Part shown: in pieces, positions 1,771 to 41,960 of the stretch
How positions within the stretch are numbered: position 1 is the first letter of the stretch
Layout of the letters: every line of letters starts with the position of its first letter
Made by a program: the position numbers and the translations under genes
From: Candidatus Pacearchaeota archaeon
Lineage (GTDB): Archaea; Nanobdellota; Nanobdellia; Pacearchaeales; GW2011-AR1
NCBI GenBank assembly: GCA_018221285.1
Contig: JAAOYJ010000002.1
Span: 1-42,249, forward strand
Direction of reading: 5' to 3'
Length of the DNA stretch: 42,249 nucleotides
Notes under the pieces: model-generated
Databases searched by the model: none
Told to the model about the DNA's origin: nothing
Seen by the model: only the letters and a program-made list of their open reading frames with translations

Positions 1771-1860
1771 GATGATTTATGTTTTATGAAGTATAAAAAT
1801 GTTTGGAGGGGAAAAGTATTTGAAGTTTGGTTGGATTGGGGAGGGTATGGGGAACTTCAA

Positions 1861-1872
1861 AAGATTTTTAAT
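1861..1872 (+). promoter_or_regulatory. TATA box of the cyclodipeptide synthase gene
   Basis: AAGATTTTTAAT ends about 22 nt before the ATG at 1894, so transcription should start at or next to the start codon (leaderless mRNA). A second promoter-like GGGGAAAAGTATTTGAAG lies at 1809-1826. The same GGGAAAAGTATTT motif recurs before the genes at 2686, 3690 and 41978. Confidence 0.55.
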
Positions 1873-1893: not shown

Positions 1894-2649
1894 ATGAGCG
1901 AAGCAACAATTACATTGCCGAAGTGGGATTATGAGATTGAAAGGAAAATGCGTGTTTTTGGAACTACTTCTGAAGAAATATCAAAGAAGAAACATAATAT
2001 TTTTATTGGAGTTAGTATAAGCAATAAGAAGCTGGATGAGAAGATGGCTTATGATTATCTTCGGTGGTCTGTTAAGAATACAAAGGAAAAGGTTGCAGTG
2101 GTGATTGCTGACGAATTGGATATTGTTAATTATGAAATCTTTAGTAGTTATAGTTCAGGTAAGGCACGAAAAAGGGCTGAGAGAGAAGGAGAAAAGTTTA
2201 AGGGAATCTTCGAAAGAGCTATTAAGAAGCTGTCCGAAAAAGACCAAGATAAAGTTATTATTTACAAATGGAGTGATGTTAAGAGAAGTAAGAATTATGA
2301 TGGGTTAAGAGAGTTTGTAACAAAGTCTTATGAAGAATATCCAGAGTTTAAGTCAGGAGTTTTATTTTTTGTTAAGAAGTATATTCGTAAAAGAGGAAAA
2401 TTAAAGATACTTGAAAACAAAGAAAAGATAGATCGGCTCGCAACATATCTCTTTGGAGAATTGCCAACTCTTTTGCAAGGAATTTATCTTGATGGAATTC
2501 ACTATGACATTTGCATTTACCCAACTTATTTTGCTTCTGGAATGAGCCAATTCGTAACAGACCTTCTAGCAGGAGAATTAGATATAAGTAAACCTCTGGC
2601 ATCTAAACTAAAAGGAAAAGCAGCCCTTGTTGAGGTTTGGTTGGATTAG
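1894..2649 (+). CDS. tRNA-dependent cyclodipeptide synthase
   Basis: 251 residues, normal for the family. CDPSs hijack two aminoacyl-tRNAs to make a diketopiperazine. The nucleophile motif G-V-S-x-x-N is present at 39-44 (FIGVSISN, catalytic Ser41). A central basic helix (SSGKARKRAEREGEKFK, about 87-103) matches the tRNA-binding region. The catalytic Y-L-x-x-E-x-P motif is present at 185-191 (Tyr185, Glu189). Tyr209-Pro210 follow with the same spacing as AlbC Tyr178 to Tyr202, so the protein looks closer to the XYP subfamily, although Asn is kept at the AlbC-40 position. Homologues are rare in archaea. No cyclodipeptide oxidase or P450 is next to it; the downstream partner is an unknown basic protein. 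The amino acids used cannot be read from sequence. Confidence 0.88.
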   Translation: MSEATITLPKWDYEIERKMRVFGTTSEEISKKKHNIFIGVSISNKKLDEKMAYDYLRWSVKNTKEKVAVVIADELDIVNYEIFSSYSSGKARKRAEREGEKFKGIFERAIKKLSEKDQDKVIIYKWSDVKRSKNYDGLREFVTKSYEEYPEFKSGVLFFVKKYIRKRGKLKILENKEKIDRLATYLFGELPTLLQGIYLDGIHYDICIYPTYFASGMSQFVTDLLAGELDISKPLASKLKGKAALVEVWLD

Positions 2650-2685
2650 GGAAAAGTATTTGAAGTTTGGAGGTGTTGAGAGGGC

Positions 2686-3618: not shown

Positions 3619-3689
3619 ATTTATTTAAAATTTCTGGGGAAAAGTATTTTAGGGAGGGGTTCTTAGGGAATATATGGGGAAAAGAAAAA

Positions 3690-7981: not shown

Positions 7982-8070
7982 AGCTCACTCTGTTCGAATA
8001 AATTGATAATAAGTAAGAACCATTAAGTTACTCAGAATATTAAATTCTTTTTAGTTAACTACTTCTCCCC
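7982..8070 (+). repeat. Dispersed ~90-bp repeat, copy 1 (most diverged)
   Basis: AGCTCACTCTGTTCG, then GATAATAA, then a diverged middle, then TTCTTTTTAGTTAACTACTTC and TCCCC at 8045-8070. It matches the copies at 8884 and 10149 best at both ends. It lies between a plus-strand small membrane gene and the convergent NYN gene. Nothing else is seen between 8070 and 8177 apart from a short inverted repeat GCTCAG/CTGAGC near 8140-8168. Confidence 0.6.
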
Positions 8071-8177
8071 ATCCCCTCAAACAATAAAAACACCAAACAA
8101 AAACTTTAAATATTCTAAATACTCTATTATATTGTTAATGCTCAGTATGGTCTTCGGGCAATGCTGAGCCTTTATAT

Positions 8178-8711
8178 TTATTCTTCATCAACAAATCTCT
8201 TAAGAATCTTATTAAGGTTTATTGTAGAATCACAAGCTTTTCTTAAATTTGAGGAAGAACTTCTGCTAAAATATGCGTTTTCTACTTTTTTCTTATATCG
8301 CTCTCTAACTATTTTTATTGAATCAACAAAATCCTCGTCGCCACTAACAACAATCGCAGTATCATATAAATCATCAACTGCGCCCATCAACAAATTATTT
8401 GATAATTTTACATCATCTCCTTTAACAATATATACAAAATCTCCGCCAGATTTTATTTTCTTTAAATTGCATAATATTACTTTAAACTTAGGGATTTCTT
8501 TTAACATATTAAGAAATCTATGATGTGCCCAATATTTTTTAGCATCAGTTTTTATATCTAAAGGAGCACCATAATAGTAAACATTAACTAATTCTCTATC
8601 TCCCACAAGTTCATTAGCTAATTTATTGAATTTCACTTTCTTGCCTTTCTTTGCTGTACTATAGTAGAAATTACTTCCATCAATAAATATTGCAACTCTT
8701 TCTTTATGCAT
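8178..8711 (-). CDS. NYN-domain (LabA/DUF88-like) protein
   Basis: 177 residues. FIDGSNFYY at the N-terminus, KGDDVKLSNNLLMGAV in the middle and AIVVSGDEDFV are the hallmark acidic motifs of the PIN-related NYN fold, with Asp11, the GDD pair and the SGDxDF loop forming the metal site. NYN proteins are predicted or shown ribonucleases. It stands alone with its own TATA-like TTTTATAAAA about 26 nt upstream (8727-8742), so its RNA target is unknown. A stress or defence role is possible. Confidence 0.85.
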   Translation of the reverse strand: MHKERVAIFIDGSNFYYSTAKKGKKVKFNKLANELVGDRELVNVYYYGAPLDIKTDAKKYWAHHRFLNMLKEIPKFKVILCNLKKIKSGGDFVYIVKGDDVKLSNNLLMGAVDDLYDTAIVVSGDEDFVDSIKIVRERYKKKVENAYFSRSSSSNLRKACDSTINLNKILKRFVDEE

Positions 8712-8836
8712 ATGGGATAAAAGACTAATTATTTTTATAAAACTATCCTTCCCTAAACTAATTTACTTCAGATATTTCTCCTCTAACCCTTATCAAACAA
8801 ACAAATCATAAATAGCTTGCCCATGAATTCTATAAT

Positions 8837-8890
8837 TTTGGGCCTCGAAGAGGTTCTCGCGCCTCCTTGGTGTACATTAGGCAGTGCCTG
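8837..8890 (+). ncRNA. Structured GC-rich element, possible small RNA; distant relative of the IscU/IscS insert
   Basis: A GC-rich island in an AT-rich gap. It has a tight hairpin CCTC-GAA-GAGG, then CTCCTTGG-TAC as in the insert at 17276, then CATT-AGGC-AGTG where the insert has its second hairpin. A TATA-like CATAAATAGC at 8806-8815 would start transcription near 8835, at the first stem. The same stretch can also be read as a 22-codon ORF from ATG 8823. Homology to the insert is judged by eye only, about 15 of 20 bases in the shared middle. Confidence 0.35.
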
Positions 8891-8975
8891 ACGCAAGAAT
8901 AATGGAAACTGATAATAAAAAATCAATAGGTTGAACAATGTTGTAAGTTCTTTTTAGTTAATTACTTCTTCCCAC
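8884..8975 (+). repeat. Dispersed ~90-bp repeat, copy 2
   Basis: CCTGACGCAAGAATAATGG, then AAACTGATAATAA, then TAGGTTGAACAATGTTGTAA and TTCTTTTTAGTTAATTACTTC. Nearly identical to the copy at 10149 over its right two thirds. It directly follows the structured element at 8837, just as copy 3 follows the related element at 10083. Confidence 0.75.
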
Positions 8976-9172
8976 TATATATGATTAGGATTCATATAAT
9001 AAGGACTATCAGGAACATCTGTTATTAGATCATACCTTAGGCCCTTTTCTGTATTCAGAAAAACATCATCTCCTCCTGCATGAGGGGGAAAAGTTATTAT
9101 CTCTCCAAGACCTTTTTCCTCTCTTCTTTTTGCTTCTTCAGGTGTCATATTAATATCATTAGATTCAATCAT
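8975..9172 (-). CDS. Hypothetical protein, 65 aa
   Basis: Not recognised. Soluble and charged, with an N-terminal MTPEEAKRREEKG helix and a Pro/Tyr/Asp-rich tail. ATG 9172 is the only plausible start. It lies downstream of and in the same direction as the DUF2283/DUF4258 pair, 60 nt away. It may be a small accessory protein of this accessory region or a chance ORF; the amino-acid composition looks coding. Confidence 0.45.
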   Translation of the reverse strand: MIESNDINMTPEEAKRREEKGLGEIITFPPHAGGDDVFLNTEKGLRYDLITDVPDSPYYMNPNHI

Positions 9173-9233
9173 ATTTAAGAATTATTGTACTCTACTTCTC
9201 AAACCACTCTAAACCTAATTCAATCATCAAGAA

Positions 9234-34909: not shown

Positions 34910-36076
34910 ATGACAAAGTACGAATTACTAGCACCAGCAGGAGACTTTCCAATGCTCATCGCAGCAGTTGAGGCAGGAGCTGATGCTGTTTATTTTGGAT
35001 TGAAGGAATTTAATATGCGTGCATCTGCAAAGAATTTCACAATCAAGGATTTGGAAAAGATAAACAAAATATGTGGCAAGAAAGTTAAGAAATACCTTGT
35101 TCTCAATACAATCATTTACGACAATGAGATAAAGAAACTTGAAGATTTAATCAAAAAAGTCAAAGGAAAAGTCGACGCTATTATCTGCTGGGATTTGGCA
35201 GTAATCCAGTTATGTAAGAAACATAAGATCCCTTTTCATATGTCAACTCAAGCTTCTATCTCCAATGTAGAGTCAGCAAAGTTCTACAAAAAACTCGGAG
35301 CAGAGAGAGTGGTCTTAGCAAGAGAATTAAATCTAAAACAAATCAAGAAGATCTCAAAGATAATTTCAGTTGAATGTTTTGTTCACGGAGCAATGTGCGT
35401 CGCTGTTTCAGGAAGGTGCTTCACTTCTCAATTCCTCTTTGGTAAATCCGCTAATCGTGGAAAGTGCCTCCAACCATGTAGAAGAAGCTACATAATAAAA
35501 GATAAGCAGGAAGGATATGAGTTAGAAGTTAAACACAATAAGGTCTTGTCAGCCAAAGACCTATGCACTCTGCAGTTCATTGAAGAATTGAAAAAAGCAG
35601 GGATCACAAGTTTCAAAATCGAAGGAAGAATCAGAGACGCGAGATACGTTGATACTATCGTAAGAACATATAGAAAAGCATTGGATGAGAATCTTGATAA
35701 AAAAGAACTAAGCAAATTGATTAAAGAATTAGAAAAAGTCTACAATCGGGAATTCTCTTCAGGTTTTTATCTCGGAGCTCCAACCTCTGACGATTTCTCA
35801 ACAATTGAACACAGCGCAGCAAAAGAGAAAAAACATTTCGCAGGAAAGATAACTCATTATTATCCAAAAATTAGCGTCGCTAAAATAATGCTTTCTTCAG
35901 ATTTGAAGATTGGAGATAATATAATTGTCATCGGAAAAACAACTGGTCTGAAAAAATCAAAAGTTAAGAGAATTGAAATTGAGAAAAAATCAGTTAAGCA
36001 AGGAAAGAAAGCTGAAGAAATCGGAATAAAACTTCCAAAAGTTCGAAAAGGTGATGAAGTTTATTTACTTGTTTAA
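34910..36076 (+). CDS. Peptidase U32-family protein (RNA hydroxylation type)
   Basis: 388 residues. N-terminal YELLAPAGDFPMLIAAVEAGADAVYFGLKEFNMRA and the signature ECFVHGAMCVAVSGRCFTSQFLFGKSANRGKCLQPCRRSY carry the Cys residues that hold an Fe-S cluster in U32 proteins. Characterised relatives (TrhP, RlhA) hydroxylate tRNA or rRNA using prephenate-derived chemistry; older annotation calls them collagenases. The C-terminal barrel (KHFAGKITHYYPKISVAKIML) is present. TTTTTTAAATATAA 26 nt upstream gives a leaderless start. Confidence 0.9.
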   Translation: MTKYELLAPAGDFPMLIAAVEAGADAVYFGLKEFNMRASAKNFTIKDLEKINKICGKKVKKYLVLNTIIYDNEIKKLEDLIKKVKGKVDAIICWDLAVIQLCKKHKIPFHMSTQASISNVESAKFYKKLGAERVVLARELNLKQIKKISKIISVECFVHGAMCVAVSGRCFTSQFLFGKSANRGKCLQPCRRSYIIKDKQEGYELEVKHNKVLSAKDLCTLQFIEELKKAGITSFKIEGRIRDARYVDTIVRTYRKALDENLDKKELSKLIKELEKVYNREFSSGFYLGAPTSDDFSTIEHSAAKEKKHFAGKITHYYPKISVAKIMLSSDLKIGDNIIVIGKTTGLKKSKVKRIEIEKKSVKQGKKAEEIGIKLPKVRKGDEVYLLV

Positions 36077-37156
36077 ATTATACAACCCTTTAACTTCATT
36101 TTCTGAAAGTGATCTGTTGAAAATCATTACTTCGTCGATTGAACCTAAATAGTCATAATATCCTCCCTGAGTGGCTCCCCATGAAACGCTCCCCGAATTA
36201 CTTATGTCATTTGGATAACTTGAAAGATCTCCTGTAGTGCTCCCCTCTATTCCGTCAACATAGGCTCTGAGAATATCATTTGTAAGATTAAAGACAACCA
36301 CAACATAATGCCAGTTCTGGTCGAAAGGAGTTAAATCAGACCATTCTTTATTAAGATAAACGCCAGATTTCCCTATTTTTGCTTCAAGCCTATTTGCAGA
36401 CCCATCTGACCCGATACTAAAATAATTAAATAAAGATTGGACTTTAGCAAACATTAGACCATTGTTTTGAATAGATGCACCTGATTTCATCCAGAATGCA
36501 ATAGAAAAATCTCCGTCGCCAAGATTATCAAGAGGAGCATCATTTCCACAATCAACTCTATTATCTACCCCATCAAATTCAATGCTATCACTCCCAACTT
36601 TGCCTTCCAGATAAATCGGAAGAGTAGTCCCTTCAAGAACCCCATTATTCCCTTCAACTTCATCCTTAGTATTTCCATCAAACTTCCACCATGAAACTAA
36701 ACCAGGAATATTCTTAACAATATTTTTATCAGAAAACTCTAACTTATCAACAGGCCTTCCTCCTGCAATCTCTCCTTTCTTAAACTCAAAAATCGGAGCC
36801 ACTTCAACACTCTTAACCAATCCAGAATAACTAATGGTGAAAGTATCCTCTCCCAATTCCACTAAACTTGAATTAACTATAAAAATCTCAGAGTCCACAC
36901 CATTACTTACAATAAACTTAATCCCTGTCAAATTCCCCTCGCCAGCAATTCTTTTAACCTTAACCTTAACACTTCCTGTTTCAACCATAACCTTCTGGAC
37001 TTCCATATCAATAGTTGTGCTCTCAATAGAAATATCTTCAGCCTGATTTTCAATAATATCATTTATTGCATACCAAATAACTCCTGCCATAATAATGCCA
37101 ATACCAATTATGATAACCACTGTTATTATTGCAGACATCCCTTTTTTATTTTCCAT
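36065..37156 (-). CDS. Pilin-like secreted protein with LamG/concanavalin domain
   Basis: 363 residues. The N-terminal MENKKGMSAIITVVIIIGIGIIM is a class III signal with likely cleavage after KKG and the hydrophobic pilin helix. A beta-rich spacer (about 35-150) precedes a laminin-G-like domain: GLVSWWKFDGNTKDEVEGNNG, SIEFDGVDNRVDCG, FSIAFWMKS, SIDEVMIFNRSLSENEVKGLY. Such domains bind sugars or proteins, so this may be an adhesive tip subunit. It overlaps the convergent U32 gene end by 12 nt. Last of four pilin-like genes in a row. Confidence 0.8.
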   Translation of the reverse strand: MENKKGMSAIITVVIIIGIGIIMAGVIWYAINDIIENQAEDISIESTTIDMEVQKVMVETGSVKVKVKRIAGEGNLTGIKFIVSNGVDSEIFIVNSSLVELGEDTFTISYSGLVKSVEVAPIFEFKKGEIAGGRPVDKLEFSDKNIVKNIPGLVSWWKFDGNTKDEVEGNNGVLEGTTLPIYLEGKVGSDSIEFDGVDNRVDCGNDAPLDNLGDGDFSIAFWMKSGASIQNNGLMFAKVQSLFNYFSIGSDGSANRLEAKIGKSGVYLNKEWSDLTPFDQNWHYVVVVFNLTNDILRAYVDGIEGSTTGDLSSYPNDISNSGSVSWGATQGGYYDYLGSIDEVMIFNRSLSENEVKGLYNLNK

Positions 37157-37189
37157 TCTAATTAAACTAAGGAATAATTATTTATAAAT

Positions 37190-37639
37190 TCATCCGAATT
37201 CATAAGTTTTTGTCTGCGAACAAATCTTCTCGTTTGAAGCTTCATCCTCGAAATAAGCATTCACTTCAACAACAGTTGCATTTGCTATTCCTGAATCAAC
37301 ATCTGTTTCAGTAACTGTCTGCAAAGGTTCTATATTCCCTAAAACCCCCCACGGATCACTAGCCGCATCACTATTATTCTTGAATACAAGTTTCACTCCT
37401 GCTATCTCATCTCCCCCACTCTTTCTATTTAATGTTACAGAACACAAAGCAGGATTACTACAATCCACAGACGTCGCTCTCACATTAACATCTAAACATT
37501 TTTCAGAAAAAGCAATATTATCTGTTTGTTCTTCAAGAACATCACTGAGCACATACCAAACCACTCCCATAGCCACTAAAGCGATTCCGATTATAATCAC
37601 TACAGTTATGATTCCTGATAATCCTTTCTTATTTATCAT
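37190..37639 (-). CDS. Pilin-like protein, 149 aa
   Basis: N-terminal MINKKGLSGIITVVIIIGIAL and the helix to about residue 32 match the neighbours; cleavage after KKG expected. The C-terminal part is beta-rich with Cys in EKCLDV, DCSNPALCSV and KICSQ, probably forming disulfides outside. Likely a type IV pilus or archaellum-like subunit; no assembly ATPase or PilC-like gene lies in the window. Confidence 0.75.
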   Translation of the reverse strand: MINKKGLSGIITVVIIIGIALVAMGVVWYVLSDVLEEQTDNIAFSEKCLDVNVRATSVDCSNPALCSVTLNRKSGGDEIAGVKLVFKNNSDAASDPWGVLGNIEPLQTVTETDVDSGIANATVVEVNAYFEDEASNEKICSQTKTYEFG

Positions 37640-37681
37640 TTTTTCAATTAAATATTATATAAAATTCTAAAACCAAAAAAT

Positions 37682-37942
37682 TTAAGATGTTACAGGTCCT
37701 GTACAACATTTTTCTCCCCCAGTATATTTTATAGTTTGGTTACAAGTGTCTGTAGTGTTCATCTTGAAGCTCCCAGTCTCGTTACAAGATTTGTATACGT
37801 TTGCAGACCCATTCTCTACATTTGCAGCTTGTTCTTGAGTAACAGTATTAATCACATACCAAACAATTCCAACTGCAGCTAACGCAATCCCGATTATAAT
37901 CACTGCTGTAATAATCCCTGACATTCCTTTTTTATTTATCAT
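37682..37942 (-). CDS. Pilin-like protein, 86 aa
   Basis: MINKKGMSGIITAVIIIGIALAA signal/helix followed by a short outside domain with Cys in YKSCNETG, DTCNQTIKY and GEKCCTGPVTS. Paralogue of the next gene (38004): both have the SCxxxG...TCxxTIKYxGGxKCC pattern. N-x-T/S sites suggest glycosylation. Probably a major or minor pilin of a small surface filament. Confidence 0.78.
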   Translation of the reverse strand: MINKKGMSGIITAVIIIGIALAAVGIVWYVINTVTQEQAANVENGSANVYKSCNETGSFKMNTTDTCNQTIKYTGGEKCCTGPVTS

Positions 37943-38003
37943 TTTTACGACCTCCTTTCAATCTAATGGTTTAAAAATAAAAACCAAAAAATAAAAATTA
38001 AAC

Positions 38004-38270
38004 TTAAGCGGTTGGAGTGGTTGTACAACATTTGAATCCCCCAACATACTTTATTGTTTCACTACAAGTTGTTAATGTTTCATTCATTCTTTCATATCCA
38101 GCATCTACACAAGATTTGAACACTAGCTCAGAAGCATTTTGCACATCTTCACTTTGTTGTTCAACAACATTGTTAATCACATACCAAACAATCCCCACCA
38201 CTGCCAAAGCAATACCAATTATGATGATAGTGGTAACAATATCTGACATTCCTCTTTTGTTTATTTTCAT
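38004..38270 (-). CDS. Pilin-like protein, 88 aa
   Basis: MKINKRGMSDIVTTIIIIGIAL signal/helix (cleavage after KRG expected), then KSCVDAGYERMNETLTTCSETIKYVGGFKCC, matching its neighbour at 37682. GAGGT near 38275 precedes the start at about 5-nt spacing. First gene of the pilin set; the four genes are 33-61 nt apart. Confidence 0.78.
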   Translation of the reverse strand: MKINKRGMSDIVTTIIIIGIALAVVGIVWYVINNVVEQQSEDVQNASELVFKSCVDAGYERMNETLTTCSETIKYVGGFKCCTTTPTA

Positions 38271-38345
38271 TTTACCTCCTCTTTTGTTTAATTAAAAACA
38301 TTACCCTAACTTTAATTAAAAAACATTACTATAAAAATGTTTTTA

Positions 38346-39545
38346 TCATTTAAATGAATCCAGTAATCTAAAAAATTCTTTTCTGTCTAATATTCTGTCG
38401 ACTTCTCCAGTTCCCATATGCTCTGTAAATTTAAGAAATACTTCTGGTTTGTATTTTTTCTTTAAAGCAGCGACGGTAATCAACTTATCATCATCCCATC
38501 CAGAATATTTTCCAGATTCAATTCCTGCTTTAATCTTTCTCTTTGACAATTCAACATCTTTGAATTTATACCTCCCTATAAATCCTGCCCAAGGATATTT
38601 CTTCCCTAAAACTTTGTAAATCATCTTCTGCCTCTCTGCGTTATCCATATGATCCTTTCCTCGAACTATATGTGTCATTTTCATTTCAATATCATCGACA
38701 GTAACAGCCAAGTTCATCAAAGGCCAAACTCTGTATTTCTTCTTCTGCAAAGGATGAGGAGTTTCATTTATTCTGGCAAGAGGAAAATCTCTCATCGCAG
38801 GATTCTTATGTTTCATTCCCTTAGGTGATTTAAATCTCAAAACAGCCTCACCAACGTTGTAACCGTCCTTATCAAACATCTTTTTCCATCTTCCCAAATT
38901 TTCTTTAATATCTAATTTTCGACAAGGACAATTTTTCTTTTCTTTTACAAACACCCTAAACTCATCTCCAGAACAAGTACAAACATAAGCAGCTTTTTTC
39001 TTAATCAACTTCTCTGCATATCTGTAATAAAGATTCATTCTTTCTGATTGAATCACCGTTTCAAAAGAACCCCCAAATAACCATTTCATTTCTTGTTTAA
39101 TAAACTTGTAAGCTGTCTTGTCGATTGTGTCTGGGTTTGTGTCCTCGATTCTAATATAAAACTTCCCTCCATATCTTTTTACATAGAGATGGGAAATCGC
39201 AGCAGTTCTAACATGTCCAAGATGCAATCTTCCAGAAGGCGCAGGACTAAATCTCATAATCACCCCTGACTTTTTCACATCAGGTAATTCAGCAAGTCCA
39301 TCACGAACCTTTCTTTTACTAACAGTCTTCTCCAATTTCTCAAACTCTTTTTCCTGTTCAGTTGTGGGCATTGAATTAACTTCACTAATTACTTTAGAAA
39401 TCTTTTTGATATATTTCTTAACATCACCTTTTTTCAAACCTTCATTAAACAGCGACGATATAACTGCCCCTTGCTGAGCTTTACCACCATAAGCAATAGC
39501 ATTCTTAAGAGCATAAGCTTTGGTTTTTAGAGAAAGGTTTTTCAT
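38346..39545 (-). CDS. gltX: Glutamyl-tRNA synthetase (archaeal type), short C-terminus
   Basis: 399 residues against about 550 for archaeal GluRS. An N-terminal helical domain (to about 95) precedes the class I site: MRFSPAPSGRLHLGHVRTAA (HLGH), IRIEDTNPDT, zinc-like CTCSGDEF/CPCRK, HIVRGKDHMDN, and the KMSKS equivalent ELSKRKIK. It ends soon after SGWDDDKLITVAALKKKY, so the beta-barrel anticodon domain is missing. It charges tRNA-Glu (and possibly Gln, as in archaea). Its ATG overlaps the toxin stop by 4 nt. Confidence 0.85.
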   Translation of the reverse strand: MKNLSLKTKAYALKNAIAYGGKAQQGAVISSLFNEGLKKGDVKKYIKKISKVISEVNSMPTTEQEKEFEKLEKTVSKRKVRDGLAELPDVKKSGVIMRFSPAPSGRLHLGHVRTAAISHLYVKRYGGKFYIRIEDTNPDTIDKTAYKFIKQEMKWLFGGSFETVIQSERMNLYYRYAEKLIKKKAAYVCTCSGDEFRVFVKEKKNCPCRKLDIKENLGRWKKMFDKDGYNVGEAVLRFKSPKGMKHKNPAMRDFPLARINETPHPLQKKKYRVWPLMNLAVTVDDIEMKMTHIVRGKDHMDNAERQKMIYKVLGKKYPWAGFIGRYKFKDVELSKRKIKAGIESGKYSGWDDDKLITVAALKKKYKPEVFLKFTEHMGTGEVDRILDRKEFFRLLDSFK

Positions 39546-39793
39546 TTTATTTTATAGATATTTTTTCTGTGTCCTAATCTGAGTATCTTTATCTTGTTTT
39601 CCTCCACTTCAAATAGGATTCTGTAATTTCCTACCCTTAATTTATAGTCTGTAGTGTTTTTTAATCTTCTGACATTTCTAGAGAAAGGATTAACCGAAAG
39701 TAATCTGATTTTTTTAACAATCCTTTTTGCAAGTAAAATATCAAGTTTTTTAATTTGTTCACGTGCTTTTTTATCCCACGTTATGTTGAACAT
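39542..39793 (-). CDS. RelE/ParE-family toxin (intact locus)
   Basis: 83 residues: FNITWDKKAREQIKKLDILLAKRI, RRLKNTTDYKLRVGNYRILFEVE, ILRLGHRKNIYKIK. A clear paralogue of the 233-484 toxin. Likely cleaves mRNA on the ribosome. The start shares one base with the antitoxin stop (TAATG) and the stop overlaps the gltX start (ATGA), so toxin and synthetase are translated as one unit. Confidence 0.88.
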   Translation of the reverse strand: MFNITWDKKAREQIKKLDILLAKRIVKKIRLLSVNPFSRNVRRLKNTTDYKLRVGNYRILFEVEENKIKILRLGHRKNIYKIK

Positions 39794-41877: not shown

Positions 41878-41960
41878 TTTAGTTAATGTTTAATAGCAAT
41901 TAGTATAATTAAAACATTTTATTGATTTTTTTAATAATAGGGGAAAAGTATTTAAATAAA
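41878..41960. promoter_or_regulatory. Divergent promoter between peptide array and HTH gene
   Basis: On the minus strand CTATTAAACATTAAC (41881-41895) lies about 26-30 nt before the first peptide ATG. On the plus strand GGGGAAAAGTATTTAAATAA (41940-41959) lies about 26 nt before the HTH gene ATG at 41978. The arrangement suggests local control of the cluster by the HTH protein. Confidence 0.6.

Follow-up and report, generated by a model that had tools for sequence, protein, structure and literature searches.

A predicted XYP-type, tRNA-dependent cyclodipeptide synthase encoded in the genome of a DPANN archaeon

Among the characterised cyclodipeptide synthases (CDPSs), the closest to the enzyme described here is ParcuCDPS from the CPR bacterium Parcubacteria bacterium RAAC4_OD1_1 (PDB 7QB8 and mutants), which is a cyclo(His-Pro)/cyclo(His-Glu) synthase. 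In this enzyme, Asp58 forms a hydrogen bond with the catalytic serine and is essential for activity (PMC7613923). AlbC from Streptomyces noursei (PDB 3OQV, 4Q24) is of the NYH type, with a histidine and not a proline after the catalytic tyrosine, and is partnered by the tailoring oxidase AlbAB (PMC11055893). Another archaeal CDPS of the XYP subfamily, and the first to be reported, is AQS34941 from a 'metagenomic archaeon' (PMC5816076). Class I aminoacyl-tRNA synthetases of the TyrRS and TrpRS type have the Rossmann core in common with these proteins.

The window, i.e. the whole stretch of 42,249 nucleotides analysed here, carries on its plus strand a coding sequence at 1894..2649 (251 amino acids, ATG start, TAG stop) for a CDPS of the XYP subfamily and of the ParcuCDPS type. 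The reading frame matched Pfam PF16715 CDPS with an E value of 2.7e-20 (73.5 bits, cut-off 27) and NCBIfam TIGR04539 with an E value of 4.5e-25 (88.5 bits, cut-off 45). In a phmmer search of the PDB sequences, ParcuCDPS (7QAQ) came top with an E value of 1.4e-19 and was followed by further CDPSs; the strong profile matches were CDPSs without exception. The window protein shares with ParcuCDPS the XYP signature, the Ser-Asp dyad, the Tyr/Glu/Tyr set and 25% identity, and both enzymes come from small-genome lineages of the symbiont type. It differs by about 15 extra N-terminal residues, by an insertion of two residues after Tyr209-Pro210 and by its archaeal carrier. The identity with AlbC is about 17%, while the fold (Z 17-18) and the catalytic scheme are shared; no counterpart of AlbAB was seen beside the window gene.

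The first-pass annotation had proposed a CDPS with Ser41, Tyr185, Glu189 and Tyr209-Pro210. Each of these residues, as well as Asn44, was confirmed by its position in the translation, and with the two profile matches above their cut-offs the observation is confirmed. The Ser41 codon, AGT at 2014..2016, is the equivalent of AlbC S37 and ParcuCDPS S26; by analogy with the characterised CDPSs, Ser41 would be the nucleophile that carries the aminoacyl and dipeptidyl groups. The codons from Tyr185 to Glu189 (2446..2460, plus strand as for all these codons) correspond to AlbC Y178/E182 and ParcuCDPS Y167/E171, and those of Tyr209-Pro210, the 'YP' of XYP, at 2518..2523 to AlbC Y202/H203 and ParcuCDPS Y191/P192. 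The catalytic set also includes Asp73 (codon 2110..2112), the equivalent of ParcuCDPS Asp58, which was missing from the earlier list. Eight residues (Ser41, Asp73, Asn79, Trp126, Phe152, Tyr185, Glu189, Tyr209) were invariant across the close relatives. The position of Asn44 is occupied by T or L in these relatives and by any residue in XYP enzymes, so that the G-V-S-x-x-N signature put forward earlier is present in the protein with its Ser41 and Asn44, but its asparagine is not defining. The term 'AlbC-like' is likewise loose: the intervals, S-(144)-Y-(4)-E-(20)-Y, do resemble the 141/4/20 of AlbC S37/Y178/E182/Y202, but the sequence is of the XYP/ParcuCDPS type and not NYH. Neither HIGH nor KMSKS occurs in the translation, and Ser41/Tyr185/Glu189/Tyr209 stand in place of these synthetase motifs; adenylation is therefore not expected of this protein.

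The assignment to a subfamily follows from the residues at three AlbC positions. The XYP signature (any residue at AlbC 40, Tyr202, Pro203) is found as Asn44, Tyr209 and Pro210, and the NYH signature (Asn40, Tyr202, His203) is broken by Pro210, which replaces the histidine after Tyr209. In the tree, the window protein grouped with ParcuCDPS and FoCDPS, apart from the NYH enzymes (split 100/98). Judged by these sequence features, the window CDPS is of the XYP subfamily and not of AlbC's NYH type. The residues of the first substrate pocket (P1) were extracted by an alignment which, as a control, returned GAYAWELY for ParcuCDPS, the motif published in Table 2 of PMC5816076. The eight positions of the window protein read FGVYWTLC. 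Tyr55, Glu174 and Tyr189 of ParcuCDPS are replaced by Val70, Thr192 and Cys207, and because these are the histidine-selecting residues, the side chain accommodated in P1 is probably not histidine. Two DPANN relatives (G308, G072) keep the glutamate and the tyrosine at the last two histidine-binding sites, with a leucine at the first. The nearest characterised motif is FGLAWSLL (Phe), and the pocket residues hint weakly that a hydrophobic or aromatic side chain is more likely.

The fold was predicted with AlphaFold2 from an input of the window protein and six relatives. The model had a mean pLDDT of 86.3 and a pTM of 0.84, and its sole long low-confidence stretch was residues 1-17, predicted to be disordered. 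CDPSs ranked first when the model was compared with the PDB by Foldseek. A second structural alignment placed ParcuCDPS at Z 23.5 (rmsd 2.7, 215 residues) and all other CDPS structures at Z 14-22, followed by tyrosyl-tRNA synthetases at Z about 14. The predicted structure thus has the class I synthetase-like CDPS fold on which the first-pass annotation had made its proposal depend.

The closest homologue, from another genus of the same family (G920), aligned without gaps and with 144 of 251 residues identical (57%); every catalytic residue and all eight P1-pocket residues were the same. Identity at codon positions 1, 2 and 3 was 65%, 78% and 45%, respectively, dN was 0.33 and dS was saturated. 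Since the catalytic and P1 residues are identical while the silent sites are saturated, this comparison indicates that the enzyme and its first substrate pocket are under strong purifying selection. The G920 protein is collinear through the N-terminal stretch that other relatives lack, and for this reason the ATG at 1894 is likely the translation start.

The start is also supported by an AT-rich BRE/TATA-like stretch read from the sequence, AAAAGATTTTTAAT at 1859..1872 of the plus strand, about 26 nucleotides before the ATG, a candidate promoter of a leaderless archaeal transcript. A promoter-like repeat, GGGGAAAAGTATTT, is located further upstream at 1808..1821 (plus strand). Exact copies of GGGAAAAGTATTT were found at 2649-2661, 3637-3649 and 41941-41953, upstream of other plus-strand genes, and the window holds 13 matches to this motif at no more than two mismatches against 4.6 expected from shuffles; the repeat looks like a BRE/TATA promoter element. 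The region over the 3′ end of the gene (2577..2662, plus strand, 86 bp) is 84% identical to positions 3211-3296 of contig C35 of the same genome (L040:3211-3296). We rejected this match as a second CDPS: it is a non-coding relic of the end of the CDPS gene.

The gene stands alone, its neighbours encoding a phosphoribosyltransferase, a small basic protein and a membrane protein. The second of these, encoded downstream of the CDPS, was considered as a partner and rejected: it matched no Pfam family and gave only weak matches in few relatives. That no tailoring enzyme lies nearby, as noted before, holds for the visible sequence, which includes only 1.9 kb of contig upstream. A search of the genome for tailoring genes returned, on a different contig, a single nitroreductase-family gene of ordinary type, and no P450 was found elsewhere in the genome; no structured RNA or riboswitch was found near the gene. 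Elsewhere in the window, three similar consecutive genes at 36065-38295 encode pilin-like or secreted proteins beginning 'NKKGxSGIIT/SAIITVVIIIGI', and two RelE/ParE-like toxin genes of similar sequence (233-484 and 39542-39793) are located near the contig ends.

Taken together, we consider it very probable that the product of the window gene works as a tRNA-dependent CDPS, belonging to the XYP subfamily and the ParcuCDPS branch, and that the gene stands alone. The observed basis of this reading is the family, the predicted fold, the catalytic residues, the purifying selection, the archaeal carrier and the patchy distribution in DPANN and CPR, while we infer the catalytic steps and the promoter. 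By homology, a first aminoacyl-tRNA would bind with its side chain in P1, and its aminoacyl group would be transferred to Ser41, with Asp73 for activation and Tyr185 and Glu189 for positioning. Another aminoacyl-tRNA, bound in pocket P2, would then donate its aminoacyl group to give a dipeptidyl-Ser41 intermediate, and Tyr209 would assist the cyclisation that releases the 2,5-diketopiperazine. The gene would be transcribed from its own putative promoter, and it has probably been gained and spread by horizontal transfer among DPANN and CPR genomes. Two differences from ParcuCDPS speak against this reading, namely the insertion after Tyr209-Pro210 and the N-terminal 17 residues predicted to be disordered.

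The alternative that survives best, improbable as we judge it, is that the protein has the CDPS fold and no longer makes cyclodipeptides, using aminoacyl-tRNA otherwise, for example in its hydrolysis or in aminoacyl transfer to a different acceptor. To our knowledge, no activity is known for any archaeal CDPS of the DPANN/CPR XYP branch, and no tailoring or export gene adjoins the gene in the window. Some XYP enzymes were inactive in E. coli tests (PMC5816076), so that membership in the family is no guarantee of a detectable activity. However, the full catalytic set, including the Tyr209 of the cyclisation step, has been kept together with P1 under purifying selection, which argues against this alternative.

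The surroundings of the related genes vary widely. A B12 radical-SAM enzyme adjoins the CDPS in two genomes (G354, G097), SPASM radical-SAM genes flank it on both sides in G402, and a radical-SAM gene lies near it in G139 and G378; these genes, two of them B12-binding and two SPASM, are at L031:697-2061, L036:8473-9861, L034:6105-7241 and 8013-9215, L091:8283-9392 and L092:2939-4120. Their position makes them candidate tailoring enzymes for cyclodipeptides. A class I methyltransferase gene is adjacent in two DPANN genomes (G923, L118:93-806; G378, L092:4280-4990) and in one CPR genome (G518, L082:6680-7390). In five DPANN loci (G168, G148, G164, G263, G139), an AsnC/Lrp-type protein of 314-346 amino acids is encoded divergently from the CDPS (L022:6129-7163, L024:4538-5578, L025:6629-7645, L028:8134-9147, L091:7294-8238) and is likely, from this arrangement, a dedicated regulator. 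Integrase or transposase genes (a tyrosine integrase, a recombinase fragment or a DDE transposase) abut the CDPS in G925 (L117:4457-6391), G920 (L116:3710-4735) and G923 (L118:1749-2576). No neighbour is common to the window gene and its closest homologue in G920. Since the neighbours of the relatives differ and include integrases and transposases, the CDPS gene seems to be mobile and to have been incorporated into a variety of small clusters. Contig C36 of G378 also carries a tandem CDPS pair (L092:4992-6379), the upstream copy being broken by a stop and the contig end, and a third CDPS gene of this genome is on contig C33.

Such mobility raises the question of a decaying or recently captured gene, left over from a mobile element and without function. 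Consistent with this possibility are the sporadic distribution of the gene, its unshared gene order, the transposase and integrase genes abutting its relatives, the relic on contig C35 and a CDPS fragment with stops in another genome (G019). Nevertheless, the window copy is intact, is preceded by a promoter-like region and has diverged from its G920 homologue over a long time under strong constraint; we judge a leftover even less probable than a change of activity.

The first-pass annotation had spoken of few archaeal cases of CDPSs. This agrees with the published survey of 2018, in which one archaeal sequence is given (PMC5816076), but not with the genomes searched here. CDPS genes were present in 18 of the 371 sampled genomes of the carrier's DPANN phylum (about 5%) and in 13 of 181 from its family (7%), as well as in 7 of 379 from a CPR phylum (2%) and in 2 of 87 from the phylum of Ca. 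Forterrea. Both the NYH and the XYP subfamilies were represented in DPANN and in CPR. A search of the open-access literature linked CDPSs with DPANN only by chance co-mention. In the GTDB r220 contigs, the window protein alone as bait retrieved no close relative, and an alignment of four DPANN sequences retrieved six relatives, five from DPANN and one from CPR. A viral origin was also considered and rejected: with the baits used, no relative was found in IMG/VR viral contigs or phage records.

A phylogeny against the CDPS families, suggested in the first-pass annotation, was built from 42 rows and placed the window enzyme in the XYP branch. The window protein and its G920 homologue form a pair (100/99) within a DPANN-only group of seven (95/98), itself inside a DPANN/CPR XYP branch that includes ParcuCDPS; few bacterial XYP enzymes were included in the tree, and the branch may hold other bacteria as well. 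One CPR enzyme and one DPANN enzyme, 56% identical, form a sister pair in this tree (100/97). A constraint holding together the three XYP-branch enzymes from CPR was rejected with a p-AU of 0.001, the group being a taxonomic one and the test having been run after the tree was seen. The sister pair and this rejection imply at least one gene transfer between the domains.

The assignment of the gene to a DPANN archaeon is supported by the contig itself, which encodes an archaeal RpoE' (Rpb7-like), ribosomal protein S27ae, HisRS and a Glx-tRNA synthetase, and by the GTDB family, which holds Pacearchaeota. The genome bin comprises 863 kb in 43 contigs and is 82% complete, and members of the group probably live as symbionts. 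A bacterial contaminant contig binned into the archaeal genome is highly improbable: the estimated contamination of the bin is 5.8%, the gene is 1.9 kb from the contig end and the nearest enzyme to have been characterised belongs to a CPR bacterium, but RpoE' and S27ae are on the same contig, the G+C content is the same (34.3% versus 33.5%), the promoter-like motif GGGAAAAGTATTT occurs at both contig ends and the nearest homologues come from this DPANN family.

Five of the CDPS homologues have a cysteine at the site of the catalytic serine and keep the other catalytic residues. They are encoded at L028:7311-8060 (G263), L085:5382-6239 (G715, CPR), L091:6516-7196 (G139), L092:4992-5693 (G378, copy G378b) and L118:808-1509 (G923); those of G139 and G378b matched no Pfam family at E 0.001. 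These variants occupy two separate lineages, and the change from serine to cysteine therefore needs at least two events on the 42-row tree. The S26C mutant of ParcuCDPS still makes its product (PMC7613923). Sequences without the catalytic serine were dropped from the 2018 census (PMC5816076), which may explain how the cysteine variants were overlooked.

In its mechanism, the archaeal CDPS of the window is a normal representative of an established family; what is unusual is its carrier. We see about an even chance that an under-described CDPS family is common to DPANN and CPR, one that crosses the domains, is set in varied small clusters with Lrp-like regulators, methyltransferases and radical-SAM enzymes, some of these of the B12 type, and has exchanged its serine for a cysteine in two separate lineages. 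If this is true, symbiont-type cells with minimal biosynthesis would maintain a diketopiperazine chemistry of their own from charged tRNAs. Such a product may serve signalling to a host or neighbours, or competition with them, as the first-pass annotation proposed. About 5% of the genomes sampled from the DPANN phylum have CDPSs, which are under selection and intermingle with those of CPR; this suggests that even cells regarded as dependent on others put charged tRNAs into making a secondary metabolite. These enzymes are worth expressing, including the natural cysteine-nucleophile variants which a census requiring the serine would discard.
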